This document shows, piece by piece, positions 35,210 through 50,996 of a stretch of 64,000 bases of DNA. The DNA is from an uncultured Isosphaeraceae bacterium. GTDB lineage: Bacteria > Planctomycetota > Planctomycetia > Isosphaerales > Isosphaeraceae. A model generated the notes under the pieces. The model saw nothing but the letters and a program-made list of their open reading frames with translations, did no database searches and was not told where the DNA came from. Location of the stretch: positions 1 to 64,000 of the forward strand of contig CAMFLR010000006.1 in assembly GCA_945957605.1 (NCBI GenBank), written 5' to 3'. Each line of letters begins with the position of its first letter. Within the stretch, counting starts at the first letter, position 1. Position numbers and translations under genes: made by a program.

Positions 35210-38200
35210 TCAAGTTGCCGAATGACGCCCCGCGGCGTTCATCGCGAGCAAGAAGAGAGCGGGGATCGGACAGATAAGAGCCAAAAGACAAAGCCCGACA
35301 ATCAACCCTCGTCCCATAACCCGCGACCTGCGCCAGAGGCCGCGTGTAGTCCAGCCCGATACGAACAGGCTCGCAAAACCGATCGCCACGCCGCAGATCG
35401 GCAAAACCACTGCCGGGATTGTTTCAGGGGTTTTCTCGAGCTCAAACCGACGCGTGTTGTTCGACGATCCGGGGGTCGTGCGGAAGTAGTTCGTCGTGCT
35501 GAATAGCCCACGAAGCGGTGGTGCGATTGCTTCAATTTGTGGCGGGGTTCGATCGATTCCCGCCTGCGTAACCGCCGAGAGGTCGAGCGCGCTGTTCAGG
35601 TCTTCGAGACCGTTGACCGCGAGACTTTCGGATACAACTTCGCGCGTCCGCGTCAGTCGTTCAGTGACCGAATCGAGCACCGCAGCGTTCGAGGCATTTC
35701 GCGAACCGTAAGTGAGAGTCACGCTATTTCTGACAGCGATCGATTGCTCGGCGAACTCGGAAATCATGCGACGCAGCCGTGCCTCGTCGACCGTCGAGCT
35801 GCGATCGAGCTGGCCGATCCGGCTCACGACTCGTCGTGCGAGGCGATCGACCCGTTCGAGCATCCAGAGCGGTTCGGGAATCTCTTCAGCTCCGCCTTCG
35901 GCCCGAATGCGTGCCGATGCTTCGGTGCTCATCTGAAAAATCGCCGCACCATCGCCAGAAATCGCGTGCGGATAAACCAAGCCGCGGCCACTCTCATTGG
36001 CGGCGTGCCAGTAGAGATCGACGACCGCCTCGCCGGGAGAATCAACCGCCAAGCACCATCGCGCCGGCGATTCGCGAAGCGCGGAAGTGACACGACCATC
36101 AACGGTCGCCGCGAGCACGGAGGCAGGAGCAGAAAGATCAAAATGAAACATCGCCCCACGCCGGCCATCAATGAGAAACCGTGCCCTGCCCCATGTTGTG
36201 CCGTCGATATCGCGCGCGACGTTGTACGACGTCTCTCGCACTTGGGGCTCGGCCAGCGGCGAGCGATCGCTCCGATCTCCACGCACAAGCAGCGACAACC
36301 CCCAGCTATCGCCTCGAACTCGATACGTTTCGACGCGATCGAGGTTGATATCGAAGAGGTCGATATCATTGACTCGCGAAAGATCGACCGTTTGCAGGCC
36401 CGAGGATCCTTCGATTTCAATTGGCGTCGACGTTTGCCGTTCGACCGCAAGCAGCCGATCGACCGACCCATGGCCGAGCGGGATGATATCGGGAAATGCG
36501 ATCGAAGCGCCCGGTGTGTTGGGTCGCGAACTTCGCACTGCGAGCCTGGCCGTGCCCCAGACCGGTCGATTGGGGCGGATCGTCCAGAGCGTCCATTCGC
36601 CACGCGTTTCGGCGATGCGCTGAGTCGTCTCGCCGAGAAGTTCGATTTGGAAGCCGGCGGCCCAAGTGGTGGGAACTTTGAGATAAAGCACGTCGATCGG
36701 ACCGCCGGTCACGTTGTAGCGGATCGACGACGTGAGTTGCGACGACTCATCGCTCATCGTCAGGCGGCTAAAGAGCCGAACCTTCACATTCGGCGGCGCA
36801 GCTTGCCAGACAAGTTCGCTGAGCCCTGAAGGTTGCTCGACCTGGTAAACGGCTCGATAAGCCGCAGACGCAGCGCCGGTCGCGGGCTGATCGATGACAG
36901 AAACTTGTGAAACTCCTGTACCCATCGCAAGCTGCGGCCGTACCGAGGCCTGAACCGTGAGTTGGCCCGGCAATTCATTGGCGCCACGCCAGCCGATCCA
37001 GGGCGTGATCACGCGATACCTGCGCGACTCGCTCAGCGGCTGGTCGGGGGCGACGGTGATATGCCCCTTGAGCGCCAGCTTTCGCGTCTCGCTCGCGACG
37101 GGATTCAGTTCGACATGCAACCTGCGCGGTTCGGGCCGGCTGAGGCATGCGAGTCCATCAACGGTGAATCCGTCGAGCGTGAGATCGGCCGGGACGACGA
37201 GATCGAATTCGACGGGTGATCCACGTAATCTTGTCAGTTCCGCATCGACGGCCAGATCGACTCGTCCCTCGCCCAAATCAACGCGCACCTGCGGCCGGCT
37301 GGCGAACCGCGGAGCCAGCGCGGTTGTTTCAGCCGAGGCCTCGATCGTTTGCAGGAATCCAGTTGCGCCGGCGAGAGTAAGCGACTCGGCGGGAAGCGTT
37401 CCCCACGATCGCACAAATGTCTCCTCGTCGATCGGATCGAACCCATTCGCCGAGTTGAGCCGCCCGCTCCAGTCGCTCGGCCGCCTGAACGCGATCGCAC
37501 CCGAAAATGAGGCATTTCCCGCCAGCGTGACGCTGGGCGCCCTTCGTCTCTGAACATCCCCACTCATCCCGCGCGACAGTGGCCGCCAGACTTCTACGAG
37601 AATCTCCTCCGGACGGCGGAACGGCGGATCGAACGTCGCCACCCATTCCGGTTTCTGAGTCGTCCCTTCCCAACGCTGGTCCGCAAGCCGCCCCGGCTGG
37701 GCCAAACGAATTTGTGTCCCGGGCAACACGGCGAATCGCAAGCGAGAAATCGGCGACGTGACGTTAGGCGTTAGCCTCAGCCGCACGTGGTCGCCTGCGA
37801 TGCGAGCATCCCAAAGAGCGAGCGCCGAAAATGTTTCACGCAGCCGTGCGGTTTCGGCTCGCGTCCGAAAGTTAATCCCGATGGTGCGCACGAGCCCGAC
37901 TTCTGCCGAAACGTTGCTCGAAATCAGGCTCGAACGGAGGTTGGGATAATCAATATCAACGAATGGATACGCAGACGTCTTGGAAACTTCGAGATGCGTC
38001 AAGGCAACGGGATTGACGCCGATCGCCAACCGCTCCGATTCGCCCTCTTCCTGCAATCGCACCATTCGCTCGAAAACCAGCCGGTGCCGGCCTGGCTCGG
38101 CGAATCGCGCGATCGCCGCGTTTCCGTCGCTCACAACGCGCAGGGGGTGATCGCGGCCGTCGAGCGTGGCTTGCAGATTCCACGCTCCCTCGCTCCGCAA

Positions 38201-41200
38201 GCGCCAGTCGGCGGGTTCGTCGCCGCTCGTCACGACGAGATACTCGCTACGCACCAGCACCGTTTTCCCTTCGACAACGCGGCACTCGTGTCGTGCCTCG
38301 ATCGCATCAACGCGGGGCGCAGTTGGAGCCGCAGGAGGATTTGCGATCGCCTTGAGCCGTTCAAGGTCGGCGAGTTTCATGATCACGTGGGTGGGCGCAG
38401 CGTTGATCGTCGCCTCACCGTCGTATGGCATGAGCACGATGATAACGTCGCTCGCGCGGTTGACCGCCTGTGCCTCGAGCCGAATTGACGGCCATGCGAG
38501 CACGATTGAGCCGATCAGGAGGATGGGTGTCAGGTGGCGTAGTGAGGTCGTTCGCCCTGAACGCACGGAAGAATCGTGGCTCGCAGAGGTAATTGAAACG
38601 CTCAGGCGCGGCTCCAACTTCGGCCGCGCGGCGAGCACCAATCCCGCCGCACCAAGCCACGACGCGACGATAATCCACGCCGGAGCGTAATGAATGAACC
38701 CGACAAGCGTCAGCCCAATGGCAACAGCGATGGATATCATCACTCTTAATGATTTGGGCGTGATCGCGCGAAGCACGAGTCCCAGCACGATCATCGTCAG
38801 CGCTGTGCCCAATGCACGCCAGATGCCGAGGTGTTCTGGCTCGACTTCGCACCAGAATTCGGCGGTGGGCCATCCATTGCATCTGAGATGAATCGTGCCG
38901 ACGTTGCTCGCCGACGATTCTTCCGCTGGGACAGAATGGTGCCGCCAGGCGTGTGCGTATTTCAAACGGCTCGTAAGGTCGTCGCCACCAAGCAGCGATC
39001 GCCGAATTTCCGCCTTTGTGCGGGGCGATTGCGACCAGTCGATGTGTGCAGAATTCGCGACTTCACGCGTCGTAACGATCCAGGCCGAGCCCGTTGGAAT
39101 CACCACCAGCGGCCCGCGCTCGAATCGCGTCGGATTGCGATTCTCCTTCCAGTTCGCCGAGTCGCCGAACGGTGCGGACGACGATGTCAAACTTGCTTCC
39201 GCTAATGCGGCCGCGTCGACCAGAACCGGAACCTCTGACGATTCGAGACGCCCGAGCCATTCACCGACGGTCAATGCCGCTGACGAGTTCTGCTCGTCTG
39301 TATTGAGTAGTTCGCGCAGCCGTTGAGTTTGAGTCGCGCTTTGCCCATTCGCTTGGAACGATGTGCTCAATCCACCGGCGGTTAACAGTTCCAGCACACC
39401 GGGTGATTGGTTGACTCCATCGCGCAGTACTGCGTTGCCCAGGCGGGCGACGCGCCATTGCGTCGGCAGCGATACTTGCCACGAAAAAGAGTGACATGTC
39501 CCTTCGATTTGAGGCACCGCCGGCACCAGCCGCATACCGGCGACCAATGTCGAGTTCGCTTCGCTGGCGTATTCAACGAGTACATCGAGAGGTGCGTCGC
39601 TGTTGGTGGGAGGGAGCGCTAATACAACGCGTGCCCCTGAACTCGCAGGGGTTAGCGGTTTGCCCCGTACCAGAACGCGCGAGAGTTTCGTGCCCGCGGG
39701 AAGTGTCAAAACGAGCGCCTCGGCGAATGAAGGGCGGCACAGAACTTCGAGCGCGAGGCGGTGAGAAGCTGCGCCATCCGCGCTGAGGGTCGATTGCAGC
39801 ATCGCGTTCTTGATGACGACTAGCGGGGATTCGGCCGCTGGAGGCGTGAGCGAGACCTTGAGGGTCCCATTCACCCCTTCGTAGTTGAACCGATGCGACG
39901 CCCTGACGCCGAGTTCACCGCGAGTTGCGGTCGTCGTCCCCTTCTCAGCAAGCGGTTCGACAATCTCCAGACCGCGCGAGTCGACCGTCGGCAAGAGGCG
40001 TTCATCGACGATGAGAGCAAGCGAGGCACGCGCGTGAAAAGTCTCGCCGAGGCAAAGTAAGGGAAGCGATGAAGGGTCGGTCCAGGCAGAGTCGCTGCTA
40101 ACTTTGATCCGGATCAGGTGCGCGTTATCTGCGATTGCCGTTGGCGGAGTCTGCGGCAACGCGATCGCCAGCGCCGTTCCTCCCTCGCGTGCAAAACCAG
40201 CGTCGAGCCGCTCTTCGACTGTCATCTCACGGATCGAAACAGGCTGAGGTTCATTCGCTTCGTCAACGATTTTCCAGTCGAGCTTTCCGGGAGGCGGTAG
40301 CGTGAAAAAGATGGGCAGATCGCGGCTTTGCGATGACCCCGCACGGATCGTCACGTTCCACTCCATGAGCAGCCGTCGATTCGCGATCGTCGCCTTCCCC
40401 TCGACGTGCGACCGCGTCTCGCGTGGGGGCATCGTGATTGCGGCGACGAGTTTGGCGTCGCCGTCGACATACCGCCAGCCGATCGCGTGATCGATATCAC
40501 CAGGCCCAGTTTCGGGCTGAAAAGCGGCTGAGCGCACTGACGCGGGATCGATCCATGCAACGCCCTTTGCGGTGAGCGGCGTGAGCACGCGTCCGCCATC
40601 GGCCGATGCAACCCAGGTTTCATCGCTCGCAGGTACGCCGGCGGGACGAATTCGGGGTAGTTCGAAGTCGTTCAATCCGGGTGGTGATTTACGAATCGCA
40701 TCGACCTGAATCGCAAAGTGGTCGTCGTCCCCAGTTCTTGGAGGCGTCAACATTTGCACGCGCAAGGTGTTTTGATCGACGACCGTACTGTGCCAGGTCA
40801 GCGGCTCGTCTTCTTGCGTGATGCTCTCGACCGACCATTCCCGCGGGAGGTCAAATGCGATTACTCCCACCTTGCCACGAGCGAGCGACCAGCGGACGAG
40901 TGCGGTTAGTTTCGTTTGTCCCTGCGAAGATCGCACATATCCATGAACCGTTGCGCGGCTCAGTGGTGGCGTTTTGAGGAATGTCAGTTCGGCCGGTGGT
41001 TCGGGACGCTCGGGGTCGAACACAAGCGTGTGGCGATCGGCGGGCTCGTTCGCACCTGGGCTCAAACGCCTCCCTTGAAGCACTCGACAGCTTTCGAGCA
41101 AATGCGATCTTTCAAGGTGAACCGTTGTCGTTCCGCCCGTCCAAACGCCGTCGACAGGCCGCGCTGCGGGAATCGTCCAGGGGCGATCGACTTGAAGTAG

Positions 41201-42166
41201 AGCGACGCCACGAATGACGATTGAAGTCGCAGCAGCAAGGTCGGGATCGAACTGGACTGTGAGCGTGGCGGCACCTTGAGGAGTTTTGCCGGCGGTAAAC
41301 GATGTCACAGCGGGACCGGTCACGCTCAACGGTTCGAGCCCCTCGCTGAATGCCAACGTCAGCGGTCCGTGTCCGCCGTTGAGGTCGACGGTCCAGTCGC
41401 ATCGCCACGTTGCGGAAAGCGGCGCGACGTCGACGACGGTCGGCCCCGAAACCCAAGGAAGTGTCGGCGCAGATTTGTTCGCGTTTGCGGAGCGAAGCCG
41501 GATTTCCACGCGATTCGACGCCGATGCGAGCGACCACAGGCTGTGACCTGAGGCAACGGCATCATTTCGCGGCTGCTTCGCAAAACGATCGGCAACGAGG
41601 TTGTCGGGAAGGTCGAGTTCAAACGATCCAACTGCTGCACGCGGCAGATCGAGACTGAACGAGAGCCCGTCGGTTCCTGCTCGCGACGTGGCTCGCCAGC
41701 GATACGTCACCTGATTGGGACCATCGGGCGGAAGCCATAAGGAGACGGCTCCAGCATCGCTCGTTCGAATTTGAAAATCACGAGCCTCGGCCGAGTCGAG
41801 AAGCACGTTGAACGGCTCGAGAGCAAGAGCCCCAGCCCTCGCGCCTCGGCGAATGTCGAGTGTTGTCTCCCCGCGCAAAACGCCGTCGATCCATACGGCG
41901 TGATGAACGGCCCGAAGAAGGATCGGCCCGTCATTCGGCCGGCCGGCGTCAGCGGATTGAACCGAGCGAAGCAGAGTTTCGAACTCGGCGACGGGCAACG
42001 AAACCAGTTCGGTCCCTTTAGGAAACCAGGTCGTCACCTTGGACGCGGGAACGCGCGCTCGCACAACTTCAGGTGCCGCAGCGTTCGCAATTGGAAGCGT
42101 TGCGAAAAACGCAAACAGCGAACAGACGATGATTCGCGTCCATCCGCGAAAATCACCGCGGCTCAT
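35210..42166 (-). CDS. Giant two-unit secreted/membrane protein (2318 residues)
   Basis: One continuous frame. A signal peptide (about 1-30) is followed by about 1080 residues of beta-rich extracytoplasmic sequence and three or four membrane helices (about 1115-1180). A second signal-like helix (RHLTPILLIGSIVLAWPSI, about 1210-1228) leads another 1000 beta-rich residues, a coiled-coil stretch (about 2130-2250) and two C-terminal helices (about 2255-2310). Both halves start with a similar block just after the signal, so the gene looks like a fusion of two related genes. No known domain or catalytic motif was recognised. The start overlaps the previous stop as ATGA. A large cell-surface or periplasmic assembly is the best guess. 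Confidence 0.8.
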   Translation of the reverse strand: MSRGDFRGWTRIIVCSLFAFFATLPIANAAAPEVVRARVPASKVTTWFPKGTELVSLPVAEFETLLRSVQSADAGRPNDGPILLRAVHHAVWIDGVLRGETTLDIRRGARAGALALEPFNVLLDSAEARDFQIRTSDAGAVSLWLPPDGPNQVTYRWRATSRAGTDGLSFSLDLPRAAVGSFELDLPDNLVADRFAKQPRNDAVASGHSLWSLASASNRVEIRLRSANANKSAPTLPWVSGPTVVDVAPLSATWRCDWTVDLNGGHGPLTLAFSEGLEPLSVTGPAVTSFTAGKTPQGAATLTVQFDPDLAAATSIVIRGVALLQVDRPWTIPAARPVDGVWTGGTTTVHLERSHLLESCRVLQGRRLSPGANEPADRHTLVFDPERPEPPAELTFLKTPPLSRATVHGYVRSSQGQTKLTALVRWSLARGKVGVIAFDLPREWSVESITQEDEPLTWHSTVVDQNTLRVQMLTPPRTGDDDHFAIQVDAIRKSPPGLNDFELPRIRPAGVPASDETWVASADGGRVLTPLTAKGVAWIDPASVRSAAFQPETGPGDIDHAIGWRYVDGDAKLVAAITMPPRETRSHVEGKATIANRRLLMEWNVTIRAGSSQSRDLPIFFTLPPPGKLDWKIVDEANEPQPVSIREMTVEERLDAGFAREGGTALAIALPQTPPTAIADNAHLIRIKVSSDSAWTDPSSLPLLCLGETFHARASLALIVDERLLPTVDSRGLEIVEPLAEKGTTTATRGELGVRASHRFNYEGVNGTLKVSLTPPAAESPLVVIKNAMLQSTLSADGAASHRLALEVLCRPSFAEALVLTLPAGTKLSRVLVRGKPLTPASSGARVVLALPPTNSDAPLDVLVEYASEANSTLVAGMRLVPAVPQIEGTCHSFSWQVSLPTQWRVARLGNAVLRDGVNQSPGVLELLTAGGLSTSFQANGQSATQTQRLRELLNTDEQNSSAALTVGEWLGRLESSEVPVLVDAAALAEASLTSSSAPFGDSANWKENRNPTRFERGPLVVIPTGSAWIVTTREVANSAHIDWSQSPRTKAEIRRSLLGGDDLTSRLKYAHAWRHHSVPAEESSASNVGTIHLRCNGWPTAEFWCEVEPEHLGIWRALGTALTMIVLGLVLRAITPKSLRVMISIAVAIGLTLVGFIHYAPAWIIVASWLGAAGLVLAARPKLEPRLSVSITSASHDSSVRSGRTTSLRHLTPILLIGSIVLAWPSIRLEAQAVNRASDVIIVLMPYDGEATINAAPTHVIMKLADLERLKAIANPPAAPTAPRVDAIEARHECRVVEGKTVLVRSEYLVVTSGDEPADWRLRSEGAWNLQATLDGRDHPLRVVSDGNAAIARFAEPGRHRLVFERMVRLQEEGESERLAIGVNPVALTHLEVSKTSAYPFVDIDYPNLRSSLISSNVSAEVGLVRTIGINFRTRAETARLRETFSALALWDARIAGDHVRLRLTPNVTSPISRLRFAVLPGTQIRLAQPGRLADQRWEGTTQKPEWVATFDPPFRRPEEILVEVWRPLSRGMSGDVQRRRAPSVTLAGNASFSGAIAFRRPSDWSGRLNSANGFDPIDEETFVRSWGTLPAESLTLAGATGFLQTIEASAETTALAPRFASRPQVRVDLGEGRVDLAVDAELTRLRGSPVEFDLVVPADLTLDGFTVDGLACLSRPEPRRLHVELNPVASETRKLALKGHITVAPDQPLSESRRYRVITPWIGWRGANELPGQLTVQASVRPQLAMGTGVSQVSVIDQPATGAASAAYRAVYQVEQPSGLSELVWQAAPPNVKVRLFSRLTMSDESSQLTSSIRYNVTGGPIDVLYLKVPTTWAAGFQIELLGETTQRIAETRGEWTLWTIRPNRPVWGTARLAVRSSRPNTPGASIAFPDIIPLGHGSVDRLLAVERQTSTPIEIEGSSGLQTVDLSRVNDIDLFDINLDRVETYRVRGDSWGLSLLVRGDRSDRSPLAEPQVRETSYNVARDIDGTTWGRARFLIDGRRGAMFHFDLSAPASVLAATVDGRVTSALRESPARWCLAVDSPGEAVVDLYWHAANESGRGLVYPHAISGDGAAIFQMSTEASARIRAEGGAEEIPEPLWMLERVDRLARRVVSRIGQLDRSSTVDEARLRRMISEFAEQSIAVRNSVTLTYGSRNASNAAVLDSVTERLTRTREVVSESLAVNGLEDLNSALDLSAVTQAGIDRTPPQIEAIAPPLRGLFSTTNYFRTTPGSSNNTRRFELEKTPETIPAVVLPICGVAIGFASLFVSGWTTRGLWRRSRVMGRGLIVGLCLLALICPIPALFLLAMNAAGRHSAT

Positions 42167-45100
42167 GACTCGTGTCCCGTTTCGGTCGTCGGGCTCGCGG
42201 ATTTAGGCGGTGGTTCAACTGCTGACGGCGGTGGGCCGATGAGGATGCGATCGTTTGAAAGCGGACGCGTACGGATGGCCGTCGACTCATCGTCGCTGAT
42301 TGGCGTGTGCACGAGGCTCGTTGTCCGTTGCGGCCCCTGAGTGTGGCTGCCAGACGATTCGATCACGCGCGGCCTACCGCCGGAGCGTCGATCGATCACG
42401 CGCTGGAGTACGAGCGCGATACCAGCGAGCGTCGCGCCGAGCATTCCTGATTGCACTACTTGAAACGTGATGTTCGGATCCCAGCCGACGGCGACGATGA
42501 AAACGGCCATCGCGGCCGGAATGATGAGCGACCGAAGCGCGGGTCGAGCGATGACGAGCAAAATGCCGAAGAGTCCGACGCTTCCGGAGCAGATCGCCAG
42601 GAGCAAGACGCGCGAGACGGTCATCACCGGCATGCGTGCCGGACCTTCGGTACGACGGAACAGGTATGCGTGACCGGTTCCAACTGCGGGTGGTTCGTCG
42701 TTCGCTCGTTTCCGAGCGGTGCCGCTGAACCAGGCGCGAAGTTCATCGACCGACATGACCGGACGGCGAATCCAGACGAATCGGTCCCAGGCCCATTCGT
42801 TCTGGTCGGTCCACCCTGTGGGAACGCCGAGAATAGCAACGGTATTCGGCACCGAGACGTTCCAGTACGTCGTCTGCCAGATTGCGGACTCAACCGCAGG
42901 CGGCTCCCATGCCGACTTCGACCGCGCTGGCGTGGCATAGTCGATCGCCAGAATCACCCCGCCATCGGACGGGAGCAAGACGCGATACTGTGTCCCTTCG
43001 CCCACCTTTTCGACGTCGGTGAGTGCCTGACCATTCACCTGTGCCTGGATCCAGCGCGACTCAGGCGGCAACGCCACCACGACATCGCGCCCGTGTGACT
43101 CAAACCGGAGAGTCGCCGTTGTGCGGAGTTCGTCATTGCCGACCGATGTCGACAACAACGCCCGGCCGATCACCAGCGAGGGCAGACCGACCAGCGGCTC
43201 GGCACGAACCGAGAATTCAGGCAGCGATTCCGAGTTGGACGCGACATACGCAAGCGATCCGGCGGCGATTTCGTTCGATGCGTCGCTAGCACCCGACGGC
43301 GCGAGTTGCTGCGACCAACCGGCGGGCTTCATTTCAACCTTGAGCCCGGGCTCGGCCTCGAAGGCGAATCGCGTGTTGCCCTCGCCCATCGGCTGCACGC
43401 GCAGCGTCTCAAAGCGCCCGGCGAACGCCTTATCACTGGGAATTGGCGCATCGAAGGTCGTGCGATAGCGGAAGCGCAAATCGATCCGCTTGACGTCTGG
43501 CTTCGCGAGCGTGAGCGTGTAGCGGCGGCGGCCGTCTGGCAGCGCCGAAGCCGGTTCCCGGCGCGCAATTTCCACACCCTCGACCTCCCACGATCGGTCC
43601 ACGCCGGGAGGAACAAGCACGTCGAATTCAGAGAGCAAACCATTCACAACTTCAAGCGAAACGCTTGAACGATAGTCAATCCCAGTGCGAGTGACTCGCG
43701 CCTTTACTTCCGAATGAGACCGAATGTCGCGCTTTTGTTGGGCAAGCCGAAGCGGCAGCGTGTCGGGATTGCCGTCGTATGTCAACCAGGTCAGAGTCGA
43801 CTCGATTCCCGGGGTGGCTGTCGAGCTCAGCGTCCAGTCGCCAGCGGCGGGGGGCAATGCGCGAAGGAATTGCGGTTCGACTGGGGCCTTTGCTGCCACC
43901 TCGGCAAGATCGGCGTCGATTCCAACCGCGCGACGGATGGCGATCCGTCCGCCGAGACTCGCCGTGCGATCGGGTTCGATGAGTCCCAGCAGCGTCCGTG
44001 TCGAGCGGCTCCAACGCTGATGCGTGACGAGCTTGATCCGAAACACACCGAGGTCGCGGGCATGCGGCGTGAGCCGCACATTTAGCAACCGCTTTGCAAT
44101 CGGCGTAAATCCACGTTCTGGGGTTGGGTCCATCCCAAGCTTGGCCGATTCGATATTTTCATCGGCGGCAACCGTGTCGAGCGTCACGTTCACAGGCACG
44201 TGAAACCGCACATTGAAGGTCTGGCCCGGCGTCGCGCGGAATTGAAATTCCGACTCGATTGTCACCTGGTCGGGAAGCGCGGTCACCAGCGACCGATTAC
44301 GTGACTCGAGCGAAGGCGGCGCGGAATCGACCTTGAGACTGAGCTCGAACGGTTGCTCGACAAACCGATACGCCAGAGTCGTTCCCGGTCGGCTCCGAAG
44401 CTCGGCGGGAAGGTCTTCGGCGGGGTCGATACGCGTCAGGCCGCGCACCACCGATCCATCAACCCAAATCGAACCGTTTTGCGTGAGCGAAATCGCTCCG
44501 GTTTGAAGCGTGGCGCCTGCGATGGGATAGCCCTTCATACTCACATTCGCGCCGTTACGTGCCGAAAGCTTGCGGCGGGTATTGAACGTCACCGTCGCGC
44601 CCAAACTCCCCTGGCGGAGCGGGTCGGGAAGGTCGATCACAAAGTAGCGATTCGGCGCCTTCGTTACGGTATCAACCGCCAGCGATCGGCCGTCGAGTTC
44701 GAGGTCGATCAGGTCTTCGTCGGCGTCGAGCGTGAATTGGAGCGAGCGCGTTGTGCCGCGAACCGCCGTAATCGACCAGCGCGCACGCGTGCGAATCGCT
44801 TCAGCCGTCACGTCAACTGCTAACTCGCCCTGCGCAGAGAGGAGCGGCGGCAGAAGCATCGATTGTTCGAGCGGCACGCGCCAGGTGAGGTCGAGCCGAT
44901 TCCTCGGCGTCATCGAAACCGCGATCTTGCCGCCTGTCTTTTGTCCGGCGGATTTTTGAACGGTTACGGGGTCGTGGCCGCCGAGTGCGGCGTCGATTGC
45001 CGACTCTTCGAGTGTCAGGTCAACGGCGGTCGTCGCTGCGAGTGGAATCGCCAGGTCGAGCCGCCGCTCTTCACCATTCGTCACCACAGCCGCCGTGAAC

Positions 45101-45723
45101 TCAACGTCCACGACGTGCCGCCCTGCCCCCGTAACTTCCGCCTCCCACGCCCCGCCACCCACACCGTTCCGCACCTGCAAAAGCTGACCACGCTCGCTCA
45201 CGCGCCCGACGGGTAGGCCATCGAGTCTAAGTGCGACCCAGCGCGGTTGGGCATCGTCGTTGAAGACCTCAAACTCGGCCGCAAGTCGCGCGGTTTTCGA
45301 GCCAGCCTGGCCTTTGATCGTCACTCGCGCAATCGAAGGTGCCGGCGCGGTCGGCTTCGTAGCGTTCGCGGGCGTTGTCGCCTTGAGAAGCGACTGATAC
45401 CGATCGCCCCGAAGCAGAACGAAGTCGGGCGACTGGATCCGCGCGAGGAATGCGTCGAGCGACGCCGGACTTTCCAGAAATATCGGCACAGCCGGCTCGG
45501 CGGGCTGCGGTCCTTGCGCTGGTGCAGGCGCGGGAGAGGACGGGGCCGATGGGGGATCGGCGGCAACGGTGGGGATGACCCACGCCAGAACGAGTAAGGC
45601 GGGCAGGATTCGGGCCAAGGGCTTACGGTCCGTGCGGATACAACCAGAGCCGCGCGGACAGTTGAAAAGATGGCCCGACTGCCAGTGGAAACACCGGCGT
45701 CGAGCCTCGCGCAGCTTCTCCAT
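42163..45723 (-). CDS. Large secreted/membrane protein related to its downstream neighbour
   Basis: A 1186-residue protein with an N-terminal signal (hydrophobic ILPALLVLAWVIPTVAA) and a Pro/Ala linker. A long beta-rich region begins with a block like those in the 2318-residue protein (FVLLRGDRYQSLLKA and then VTIKGQAGSK). Three hydrophobic helices lie near 1035-1110, with a Pro/Ser/Thr tail behind them. It has no recognised enzyme motif. The ATG at 45723 begins MEKLREARRR; a GTG at 45744 is the alternative. It is 46 nt after the monophosphatase gene and overlaps the giant gene by 4 nt, so the pair is made together. Confidence 0.8.
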   Translation of the reverse strand: MEKLREARRRCFHWQSGHLFNCPRGSGCIRTDRKPLARILPALLVLAWVIPTVAADPPSAPSSPAPAPAQGPQPAEPAVPIFLESPASLDAFLARIQSPDFVLLRGDRYQSLLKATTPANATKPTAPAPSIARVTIKGQAGSKTARLAAEFEVFNDDAQPRWVALRLDGLPVGRVSERGQLLQVRNGVGGGAWEAEVTGAGRHVVDVEFTAAVVTNGEERRLDLAIPLAATTAVDLTLEESAIDAALGGHDPVTVQKSAGQKTGGKIAVSMTPRNRLDLTWRVPLEQSMLLPPLLSAQGELAVDVTAEAIRTRARWSITAVRGTTRSLQFTLDADEDLIDLELDGRSLAVDTVTKAPNRYFVIDLPDPLRQGSLGATVTFNTRRKLSARNGANVSMKGYPIAGATLQTGAISLTQNGSIWVDGSVVRGLTRIDPAEDLPAELRSRPGTTLAYRFVEQPFELSLKVDSAPPSLESRNRSLVTALPDQVTIESEFQFRATPGQTFNVRFHVPVNVTLDTVAADENIESAKLGMDPTPERGFTPIAKRLLNVRLTPHARDLGVFRIKLVTHQRWSRSTRTLLGLIEPDRTASLGGRIAIRRAVGIDADLAEVAAKAPVEPQFLRALPPAAGDWTLSSTATPGIESTLTWLTYDGNPDTLPLRLAQQKRDIRSHSEVKARVTRTGIDYRSSVSLEVVNGLLSEFDVLVPPGVDRSWEVEGVEIARREPASALPDGRRRYTLTLAKPDVKRIDLRFRYRTTFDAPIPSDKAFAGRFETLRVQPMGEGNTRFAFEAEPGLKVEMKPAGWSQQLAPSGASDASNEIAAGSLAYVASNSESLPEFSVRAEPLVGLPSLVIGRALLSTSVGNDELRTTATLRFESHGRDVVVALPPESRWIQAQVNGQALTDVEKVGEGTQYRVLLPSDGGVILAIDYATPARSKSAWEPPAVESAIWQTTYWNVSVPNTVAILGVPTGWTDQNEWAWDRFVWIRRPVMSVDELRAWFSGTARKRANDEPPAVGTGHAYLFRRTEGPARMPVMTVSRVLLLAICSGSVGLFGILLVIARPALRSLIIPAAMAVFIVAVGWDPNITFQVVQSGMLGATLAGIALVLQRVIDRRSGGRPRVIESSGSHTQGPQRTTSLVHTPISDDESTAIRTRPLSNDRILIGPPPSAVEPPPKSASPTTETGHES

Positions 45724-45769: not shown

Positions 45770-46567
45770 TTATCCCTTGCCGAGCCCCTGTCGAGCCCGC
45801 ATCACCGCCTCGCCATGCAGATGACCATTTGTCGCGAGCAGCGTCGGCTGATCGATCGAGTATGGCATGCCGTCGATGGCACAAATCGTCCCACCGGCTT
45901 CAGTCACGAGCAGAAGTCCTGCCGCGACGTCCCAGGGATGAACCGATGTTGTGTAATAGACATCAAACCCGCCCGCCGCGAGCAGGCCAAGATTAAGGGC
46001 GGTCGAGCCGGTGCGACGAACCGAGTGGGTTTCGGTCGAAAACGCGCGAAAGAGCCCGAGTTGCCGCTCGGCATCTTTCTTGAACTGCGTCGGTAACCCG
46101 GCAGAAATCAGCGACGACCTCAATGCGCTCACATTGCTCACGCGAATCGGCTGGCCGTTGCGTGTCGCGCCGCCACCCAACGATGCCGAATAGCAAGTGT
46201 TCGTCAATGGGTCGAACACCACACCAACCACCATCTTGCCCGCGTGTTCCAGACCAATTGACACGCACCAGAATGGAAAACCGTGGGCGAAGTTGATGGT
46301 GCCGTCGAGCGGGTCGACGATCCACTTCCAGGGGCGAGACGGGTCGGGGACGACGTTGTCCTCTTCAGCGAGCAGCGTGTGCTCGGGATAGCGTTCGGCA
46401 ATCATCGATGCGATCAGCCGCTGGCTCGCGGTATCTGCCTCGGTGACGAGGTCGCTCGGCCCTTTCTCACGGGCGGAAACCTTGCCAAACGCGTCGCGGA
46501 GAACCTCGCCGGCTGCGTGGGCGAGGCTCTCCGCAAACTTCAATTCTTCTGCATAAGTACCAGGCAA
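45770..46567 (-). CDS. Inositol monophosphatase family protein
   Basis: A 265-residue Mg2+-dependent phosphatase. Metal ligands are Glu69 in AEED, Asp85 and Asp88 in DPLDGTINFAHGFP (85-98), and the second motif WDVAAGLLLVTEAGG near 212. Substrates in this family include inositol-1-phosphate, histidinol phosphate and 3'-phosphoadenosine-5'-phosphate; the sequence alone does not choose among them, though length and motifs fit SuhB-type IMPases. The start is TTG at 46567 with AAGGA 7 nt upstream. It sits between the FecR/HEAT gene and the giant protein pair, with short gaps, in one probable operon. Confidence 0.93.
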   Translation of the reverse strand: MPGTYAEELKFAESLAHAAGEVLRDAFGKVSAREKGPSDLVTEADTASQRLIASMIAERYPEHTLLAEEDNVVPDPSRPWKWIVDPLDGTINFAHGFPFWCVSIGLEHAGKMVVGVVFDPLTNTCYSASLGGGATRNGQPIRVSNVSALRSSLISAGLPTQFKKDAERQLGLFRAFSTETHSVRRTGSTALNLGLLAAGGFDVYYTTSVHPWDVAAGLLLVTEAGGTICAIDGMPYSIDQPTLLATNGHLHGEAVMRARQGLGKG

Positions 46568-48606: not shown

Positions 48607-50805
48607 TTAACGATTTTCGGAAGCGGCCACGGAATAAATCTTGAACAGGTTGTCGCCGTACAGAAGCGTGAACGTTTCGGGATGCAAGTCAGCCCAGACA
48701 CGTTCGATTGTAAAGTGCTCCGAGTTGGCGACGTTATGCACGCCTTCGGTCGGGTCGGCACGGGTTACGACTAGCAGTTTGATGTCGGCGGCGCGTAAAT
48801 TCGCCAGCCACGCGTCGTAGTCGGGATAGGCGCGATCCCAGCCGGGCCGGGTGTCATCCCAACGCGATGGGAGATCGAGCGACTCGGCCGCGGCGTGGAA
48901 ATCGTGCGGCCGCCAATTGCGCTGTTTGTTGATGTTGATGTAGAAGACGTCGCTACGGAAATCGGGGCCCATCAAATAGTAAGGCAGATTCGTGCCGGCG
49001 TAGGCAATGCGTGTTCCCGAGGGCGGAACTCTCAGGTCGAGATCGACCCAGCCGTGCAAATAGTCTGGGAAATTCGGGAACTTGTTCAGAACCGGAAACT
49101 TGTTTTCCCAGTAGACCGAGGCACACATCGCAATAAACAGAGCGGTCGCGCAAAACAGATCCATCACGACCTTTTGCCAACCCATCCGCCAGTTCCAGAC
49201 CAGCGTCAGTCCAAGCACGACGGAACCAAGGCCGACAAGCAACTCGCACGTGGACGTCATCGGCCGATTCGAACCGGGCACTGCGAGGAAGCCCATCAAT
49301 ATCTCAAATAGACGCACCGGCGATGGGCTGAAGTTGGGGACCTGGGGCGTTAAGTCCCAGAATCCGCGAGCGTGCGTTGGTCGCAGAGGCCATCCTTCGG
49401 GTGTCAGGATGTGAAACACTAGCGCTGTTACCACGAGTGCACGGACGATTTTGCCGCGATCGAGCAGCGCCGCGAGCGGGATGGCGGCGAGTCCGGTCGC
49501 GTGCAGCATGAACCGCTGCTGAGTTCGGTAAGGGATGACCAGCCAGTATAACGCGATGTTGAGAAGCGCGAGCCCCGCGCAGCACCAGATGAGCCGGTCT
49601 GTTTCCTTGCGGCTTCGGCCGATCGCCCAGAAACCCGTGAGACCTGCAATCCAGAATGGAACCAAACGCGGGTCGAACACGGTCATCATCAGGTCGATGA
49701 ACGCCTGCCACGACTTGAACGGTATGTAGTACTTGCTCGTTGGCATCACCTCTGCGCTGTACCAACCGCGCAAGATCTCGCGGCCACCCAATTTGAGATC
49801 GAGCGGATAGAGCGGGTTGTTCGTCCACATCCAGTTGCGGACAAGCCAGTAACCCTCGAGTACAAACGGTGCCATCGCCAAGATGGTCAGCGCCTGAAGT
49901 TTGCGAAAAACAGGCATGTCCGCGCGTAGGACCGCGAATCCGATGCAGCCAAGCAGAGTGGGGATGAAAACAATCCCGGGCGCCTTGCATCCCCAGGCCG
50001 CACCAGCCGCGAGTCCGCAAAGCACGACCGACGGCACGCAGTGATCACCGAGAAGGAAATGCGATGCGAAATAGCAGGCAAGCAAATATCCAGCGATGAA
50101 CAACGTGTCGACATTCGGCTGCGACGTGAAAAACATCAACGGGCTGAGGTTGAAGAAGCAGCACGTCGCGATCATCGAACCCGAAACCGTTACCTGCGCC
50201 TTACGACAAAGTCCGTAAATCGCGCCAGCGGCGACGAACAGAAACGGAATCTGGCCTATGCGCGCGAGGCGATCTCCGCCCCACATCACGAACAGCCACG
50301 TATGCCAGAGGTCGCCGACCGCTGGAAAATAAGGCGCTGCCGACTCCCCGAACGGAGTGGGAACCAGGAAAATCCGCTCGGCCTTCCACCACTTCGCCGC
50401 AAAATAGAGGTGGTAAATTGGCCCATCGCTGGCAACTTCGACGGGAAACATCAACGAATAGGCACTCACCGACAGGATCGACCAGAGCGTGAACCCTAGC
50501 GCGATGCATGCGCCGAGCGAAAGCTTCTCTCGCGCAGACGGTTCCAAATCTTCGTCGGCCACCAAATTCCTGGTGCCGTACAGGCCCGTAACAAAAGCTA
50601 GCACCGAGCTTGCAAGCAACCAGACACGCGTGAGATTGCCGGTCAGCCCGAGCGCGAGCACGCTGAGAGAAAGCCAAGTCCATCCAAGAACGACGGTACC
50701 GAGCACAGCAGGAAGCCCGCTGGGCAGACGAAACCAAACTCGAGCCGCGCGATAACTTCCCAGGGCGAGAAAGGTCAGTCCGGCGACGCTCCAAACCCAA
50801 TCCAT
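48607..50805 (-). CDS. Large polytopic membrane glycosyltransferase-like protein
   Basis: A 732-residue protein with about twelve to fourteen hydrophobic segments and a short extracytoplasmic C-terminus. The early loop carries the FPVEVASDGPIYHLYFAAKW stretch, which fits the catalytic acidic loop of GT39/GT83 (ArnT-like) polyprenyl-phosphate-sugar transferases. Its role would be sugar addition outside the cytoplasm. The start at 50805 begins the first helix and is preceded by GGGA; the frame is open to 50841. It heads a series of minus genes down to 35210, with gaps of 85 nt or less. Divergent from the SIS/ROK pair. Confidence 0.8.
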   Translation of the reverse strand: MDWVWSVAGLTFLALGSYRAARVWFRLPSGLPAVLGTVVLGWTWLSLSVLALGLTGNLTRVWLLASSVLAFVTGLYGTRNLVADEDLEPSAREKLSLGACIALGFTLWSILSVSAYSLMFPVEVASDGPIYHLYFAAKWWKAERIFLVPTPFGESAAPYFPAVGDLWHTWLFVMWGGDRLARIGQIPFLFVAAGAIYGLCRKAQVTVSGSMIATCCFFNLSPLMFFTSQPNVDTLFIAGYLLACYFASHFLLGDHCVPSVVLCGLAAGAAWGCKAPGIVFIPTLLGCIGFAVLRADMPVFRKLQALTILAMAPFVLEGYWLVRNWMWTNNPLYPLDLKLGGREILRGWYSAEVMPTSKYYIPFKSWQAFIDLMMTVFDPRLVPFWIAGLTGFWAIGRSRKETDRLIWCCAGLALLNIALYWLVIPYRTQQRFMLHATGLAAIPLAALLDRGKIVRALVVTALVFHILTPEGWPLRPTHARGFWDLTPQVPNFSPSPVRLFEILMGFLAVPGSNRPMTSTCELLVGLGSVVLGLTLVWNWRMGWQKVVMDLFCATALFIAMCASVYWENKFPVLNKFPNFPDYLHGWVDLDLRVPPSGTRIAYAGTNLPYYLMGPDFRSDVFYININKQRNWRPHDFHAAAESLDLPSRWDDTRPGWDRAYPDYDAWLANLRAADIKLLVVTRADPTEGVHNVANSEHFTIERVWADLHPETFTLLYGDNLFKIYSVAASENR

Positions 50806-50996
50806 CAACGTCCCATTCCCGCGTAAGTCACGACGTGTCACAACCGAGCAGCGATGTCATCATTGTCGTCAGACCCGGGCGTCTCTCACAAGGGGGCCTC
50901 TCGACCTTCGCGCGTTTCGCATCCTTCGCTAGAATCACGAATCGAAAAAACCGGACACGGATTTCCGGCACCCCCGCCTCGAAGGAGCGATCGGCC
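50806..50996. other. Divergent intergenic region (191 bp) with plus promoter candidate
   Basis: No protein-coding frame is supported. TAGAAT at 50930-50935 is a fair -10 box; the best -35 at the right spacing is TTCGCG (50907-50912), which is poor. AAGGAG at 50982-50987 is the Shine-Dalgarno of the SIS gene. Confidence 0.35.

Follow-up and report, generated by a model that had tools for sequence, protein, structure and literature searches.

We report that a gene pair on the reverse strand of a 64,000-nucleotide stretch of DNA from an uncultured Isosphaeraceae bacterium (henceforth the window) encodes three homologous units in tandem, one in a protein of 1186 amino acids (P1) and two in a protein of 2318 amino acids (P2).

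42163..45723 (-): P1, 1186 aa; signal, unit U1 (five predicted M1N-like beta domains), three membrane helices and a conserved cytoplasmic tail
35210..42166 (-): P2, 2318 aa; signal, then U2 and U3, each followed by membrane helices
42163..42166 (-): ATGA in which the P1 stop overlaps the P2 start (translational coupling), kept in several families
38837..42076 (-): unit U2 of P2, about residues 31-1110 (profile comparison, P1-only HMM)
35429..38464 (-): unit U3 of P2, about residues 1235-2246 (P1-only HMM, model); last domain with predicted M1N fold

Homology and age of the three units

To compare the units, family alignments were made of P1 (U1), of residues 1-1200 of P2 (U2) and of residues 1200-2318 of P2 (U3). 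Profile comparison with hhalign gave 99.8% (E 1.9e-27) for U1 and U2, 99.7% (E 4e-26) for U1 and U3 and 99.0% (E 4e-18) for U2 and U3, with pairwise alignments that were collinear across 740-1000 columns, while reversed or column-shuffled controls gave at most 1.9%. The homology is thus far beyond chance, and the three tandem units that had been proposed from the letters of the window (henceforth the sequence-only reading) are borne out by the very comparison suggested there. An HMM built from P1 proteins alone also matched the P2 of the window twice, at residues 22-916 (96 bits) and 1227-2058 (111 bits). At two loci (L102 and L129) the system consists of three separate tandem genes of ~1130-1450 amino acids each. 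In a tree of 97 units, in which several deep branches have low support, P1 and the N- and C-terminal halves of P2 mostly grouped by position, and the second and third genes of these split loci grouped with the N-terminal and the C-terminal half of P2, respectively. Since the units sort by position, the split-locus genes included, the triplication is probably old.

The coordinates, lengths and ATGA overlap that the sequence-only reading gave for the two genes proved exact on re-checking. Both reading frames are kept over ~1100 or more residues in dozens of genera, so the genes are real and coding. P1 starts at the ATG at 45723, which leaves a long n-region of ~35 residues, and the TTG at codon 36 is therefore a possible alternative start. 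The overlap at 42163-42166, through which co-translation had been proposed, recurs in relatives (a -4 overlap is also found at L061, L062, L068, L101, L110, L111, L122, L124 and L125), and translational coupling of P1 and P2 fits their co-assembly in a fixed ratio.

Predicted architecture and fold of the units

The segments recognised within P1 and P2, in order along the two proteins, are as follows.

45553..45618 (-): P1 signal or hydrophobic segment, about residues 35-57 (hydropathy)
45382..45489 (-): P1 opening block, PIFLESP...DFVLLRGDRYQSLLK (about residues 79-114), which corresponds to the phylum consensus
44860..45348 (-): P1 domain D1, residues 126-288; predicted LTA4H/ERAP1 N-domain fold, Z ~13
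44326..44859 (-): P1 domain D2, residues 289-466; internal repeat, offset ~177
43795..44325 (-): P1 domain D3, residues 467-643; D2-D3 hhalign 96.7%
43189..43794 (-): P1 domain D4, residues 644-845; D3-D4 hhalign 90.8%
42613..43188 (-): P1 domain D5, residues 846-1037; predicted PepN N-domain fold, Z 12.7
42385..42612 (-): three P1 membrane helices, residues 1038-1113 (1031-1110 by hydropathy), with the CSG motif (hydropathy, alignment, model)
42253..42300 (-): P1 cytoplasmic tail motif SDDESTAIRTR (family consensus VGSDDSTAIRxR)
42071..42145 (-): P2 signal or hydrophobic segment, residues 8-32 (hydropathy)
38477..38830 (-): central P2 membrane helices, residues 1113-1181 and 1212-1230, between U2 and U3 (hydropathy)
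35561..35875 (-): helical insertion in the last U3 domain, about residues 2098-2202 (alignment, model)
35225..35428 (-): C-terminal P2 membrane helices, residues 2247-2314 (hydropathy, model)

The plan that the sequence-only reading saw in both proteins (a signal, a beta-rich stretch and a cluster of helices) agrees with hydropathy and with beta-rich models over ~900-1000 residues per unit. The block of small-hydrophobic-x-LL type noticed near the start is also real: it is a motif of strand-helix-strand-helix form that opens each unit phylum-wide, with the consensus ~IYVPYxxLexvFe...VFLPYxEFlkLW. Self-comparison of the profiles revealed a repeat offset of ~177 residues, at 98.1% in U1 and more weakly in U2 and U3. 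By profile comparison D1 had no detectable sequence relation to D2-D5, to which it is related by fold only, and the pairs D4-D5 and D3-D5 were not significant. Each unit is predicted, from the models, to consist of about five tandem beta domains of ~177 residues followed by membrane helices. The most conserved patch of P1, GVPxGWxDENxWYWDxYVWKRRP, sits in D5.

As membrane helices stand at the end of every unit (by hydropathy three to four in the centre of P2 and two or more at its C-terminus), P1 and P2 are predicted to be periplasmic proteins anchored in the inner membrane. Hence, of the earlier description of the proteins as secreted, the signal-like segments stand, whereas release from the membrane is doubtful. 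In the CSG motif of the P1 helices S1046 is invariant and C1045 and G1047 are nearly so; in the Isosphaeraceae the tail that follows has the consensus VGSDDSTAIRxR, and of the two types of locus in family f2 one has a comparable RST-type tail.

Searches of Pfam, NCBIfam and PDB sequences, and of the PADLOC anti-phage defence models, gave no match to P1 or P2. The verdict that no known family is evident therefore holds for sequence but not for fold: structure prediction, which the sequence-only reading had recommended, yielded about five M1N-like beta domains per unit. The P1 model had a mean pLDDT of 73, with beta domains mostly at 80-93, and the U3 model one of 69; the relative placement of domains in these models is not reliable (pTM 0.34-0.37). 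The top Foldseek match of both models was ribophorin I/Ost1 (E 6.6e-10 for P1 and 2.8e-10 for U3). In VIA-align comparisons of the predicted models, residues 125-284 of P1 matched the LTA4H/ERAP1 N-domain (Z ~13, rmsd 3.0-3.5 over ~155 residues) and residues 1969-2246 of P2, the last U3 domain, matched tricorn factor F3 (Z 15.3, rmsd 2.4 over 142 residues); such matching is most direct for the first and last domains, the middle ones being less directly tested. Both models also matched the VIT-VWA protein ITIH1 (inter-alpha-inhibitor heavy chain) in Foldseek. The domains of the units are accordingly modelled as sharing the beta fold of M1-aminopeptidase N-domains, ribophorin I (Ost1) and VIT domains, without a catalytic motif. 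Integrins, too, had good Foldseek E-values, yet a relationship was rejected: the alignments have rmsd >18 and were therefore read as generic beta-sandwich strings.

Each of these known systems differs from P1 and P2. M1 aminopeptidases (LTA4H, ERAP1, PepN, tricorn factor F3) share the N-domain fold at Z 13-15 and rmsd 2.4-3.5 over 142-158 residues, whereas P1 and P2 are without the catalytic gluzincin domain and its motifs HExxH and GxMEN, and repeat their domains in tandem. In VIT-VWA and YfbK-type proteins, unlike P1 and P2, a VWA domain is present; the pairing of P1 and P2 with VWA proteins is a genetic one. Bacterial DUF4424 (lpg2210, PDB 4g2a) is a secreted domain of LTA4H-N-like fold, without a peptidase domain, for which a catalytic partner has been suggested (PMC3848476). 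In contrast to P1 and P2, DUF4424 proteins have 300-360 amino acids, a single domain and no membrane cluster, and no Pfam model of DUF4424 or of other M1N-like families matched P1 or P2. The fold is known, and the arrangement and the system are undescribed as far as the searched literature and databases show, in which we found no description of either.

Distribution and gene neighbourhood

A search of 59 genomes (that of the window and 58 relatives) showed P1 in 37 and P2 in 31, the two being adjacent in most cases; named relatives (Singulisphaera acidiphila, Paludisphaera soli, Aquisphaera insulae and metagenome-assembled genomes) place the family in the Isosphaeraceae. The pair of the window combines a whole-length P1 profile match with an adjoining two-unit P2, which is how we define the P1-P2 family, and no further copy was found in the window's own genome. 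A search of other planctomycetes, likewise proposed at the outset, was made with a diverse P1 phylum profile in 244 evenly drawn genomes, and detected the units phylum-wide, in at least 84 of them, most at E 1e-70 or better. This count is a lower bound because scoring was confined to the 3 best candidates in each genome; on the same basis about two thirds of the genomes had no P1 match. P1 and P2 are usually neighbours in the same order and on the same strand, often with the -4 overlap, one exception being G018, where they lie ~11 kb apart. Some other families have a two-unit version of ~2150 amino acids without a separate P1.

In the Isosphaeraceae the pair lies in a syntenic block that comprises a SIS isomerase, ROK, a 744-aa membrane protein, a 632-aa HEAT membrane protein, an inositol-monophosphatase-family protein (IMPase), P1, P2, DUF1501 and DUF1549. 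The neighbours of main concern are:

45770..46567 (-): IMPase gene, directly upstream of P1
46623..48521 (-): 632-aa membrane protein with C-terminal HEAT repeats, syntenic in Isosphaeraceae; possible partner
L122 19098-19901, L124 863-1675 and L101 16860-17711, convergent to P2: BacA/UppP gene in f2 loci

The IMPase gene was directly upstream of P1 in all five Isosphaeraceae and in four of the six f2-family genomes searched for it, and this recurrence makes IMPase a candidate partner of P1 and P2. UppP (BacA, undecaprenyl-diphosphatase) is often convergent just behind P2 in f2 loci of the short-P2 type. We considered the 632-aa neighbour as an anti-sigma factor, since two of its N-terminal blocks look anti-sigma-like by eye, and rejected it when profile comparison with anti-sigma domains was not significant (8.5%). 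The 744-aa multi-pass membrane protein (48607-50841, (-)), syntenic in Isosphaeraceae, has no Pfam match and appears glycosyltransferase-C-like by eye.

A transmembrane VWA/YfbK gene of anti-sigma type immediately precedes P1 or the two-unit gene in 16 or more genomes from ~10 other families. By chance 0.03 such genomes would be expected, on the assumption, not entirely true, that the genomes are independent of one another. Several of these VWA/YfbK proteins bear a zf-HC2 anti-sigma domain, and an ECF sigma gene often precedes the VWA/YfbK gene where the contig allows (G066, G114, G122, G156, G166, G169, G220 and G073); the zf-HC2 and sigma-70 domains were confirmed in the linkage cases sampled. 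The pair in several families has the surroundings of an ECF sigma/transmembrane anti-sigma system, of which giant beta-array proteins are, to our knowledge, not a standard part. Unlike these families, the Isosphaeraceae, and hence the window, have no ECF sigma or VWA gene adjoining the pair.

Some VWA/YfbK proteins are giants of 850-1900 amino acids (L126 4546-8196, L134, L136, L139 and L142), several with zf-HC2; in this subfamily the YfbK_C domain is split or matches poorly, and large uncharacterised parts lie between the membrane helix and VWA. At L128 and L139-L143 the two-unit protein of ~2150 amino acids stands behind a VWA/YfbK gene, and its halves form clades of their own.

Proposed role and competing explanations

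The cell plan of planctomycetes is unusual, its periplasm being enlarged and invaginated, and few of the proteins that support it are known. The anatomy of P1 and P2 is well supported: the homology, the repeats, the gene pairing, the distribution and the linkage are results of the comparisons, and the fold and the topology are predictions. We infer, tentatively and with slightly less than even confidence, that the three homologous units of P1 and P2 make up a scaffold or sensor that is anchored in the inner membrane and lies in the periplasm. Rod-like arrays of beta domains would be placed in the periplasm or cross it, and a signal or contact would be relayed inward through the conserved domain next to the membrane, the CSG helix and the cytoplasmic tail of P1; P1 and P2, made in a fixed ratio via translational coupling, would co-assemble. 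In many lineages the pair may be wired to an ECF sigma pathway, in a putative partnership with the anti-sigma VWA domain. Since an ECF sigma gene and a zf-HC2/VWA/YfbK anti-sigma gene stand directly upstream in other families, the pair probably serves to sense or maintain the envelope, in a way that is coupled to gene expression. A wider proposition is possible, though we doubt it: a phylum-wide envelope machine, whose three units, homologous and ancient, consist of nothing but M1N-like domains in tandem, that would sense or brace the unusually wide planctomycete periplasm, would report via a dedicated ECF sigma/VWA anti-sigma pathway and had not been described before.

Three other explanations are weaker than a scaffold or sensor, because no STT3, no surface anchor and no recurring protease gene was seen. 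In the eukaryotic OST, ribophorin I has two M1N-like domains in tandem on a membrane anchor, and P1 and P2 resemble ribophorin I/Ost1 in having a signal, tandem M1N-like beta domains (in predicted structures) and a membrane anchor. This best structural match, together with UppP, PMT-type glycosyltransferase and IMPase neighbours in some families, would suit a pair that assists, as accessory scaffolds, a machine for lipid-linked glycans or for protein glycosylation; we consider this unlikely. M1N-like domains are common and the glycosylation neighbours are not constant, the inter-domain geometry of OST misfits the models (rmsd ~15-17 over two domains), and P1 and P2 have about five domains per unit in three units, as against two domains, in the periplasm of a bacterium. 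Membership of the ribophorin family was rejected: neither the Pfam Ribophorin_I nor the PDB profile revealed sequence similarity, and no STT3 homologue was found in the window's genome (assembly 95% complete), in a search in which archaeal controls were detected. Ribophorin-like tandem M1N arrays are predicted in bacteria, and such structural evidence alone says nothing on eukaryotic ancestry.

A role of the pair at the cell surface, as an adhesin or surface-layer system with integrin-like legs for attachment or aggregation, is quite improbable. Long arrays of beta domains and the high Foldseek rank of integrin alpha ectodomains would suit such a system, but the integrin alignments are as poor as stated above, the signals and multiple membrane helices predict an inner-membrane anchor, no outer-membrane or cell-wall anchor was seen, and coupling to an anti-sigma gene fits sensing at least as well. 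Least likely of all, the units would be degenerate M1 peptidases that serve a periplasmic protease or secretion machine as scaffolds or as chaperones that bind substrates, as their M1 N-domain fold and the catalytic partner proposed for DUF4424 might suggest, but there is no trace of a catalytic domain or its motifs and no recurring protease or secretion gene adjoins the pair at the loci examined.

A large recurrent gene pair among the uncharacterised planctomycete proteins, one whose structure can be interpreted, gains a predicted fold and a likely regulatory partner, and its role can be tested in genetically tractable strains. A screen in Planctopirus limnophila lists 108 essential planctomycete-specific proteins of unknown function (PMC10632474). 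The Plim_0401-0410 secretion operon of that species was rejected as the identity of the pair, the P1/P2 loci of G289 being elsewhere on the chromosome by a rough comparison of gene order. We take G289 to be P. limnophila. At L107 in this genome (2787-11352, (-)) the N-terminus is missing from the P2 frame, and immediately upstream there is a frame of 168 aa, possibly through a frameshift or a split start.
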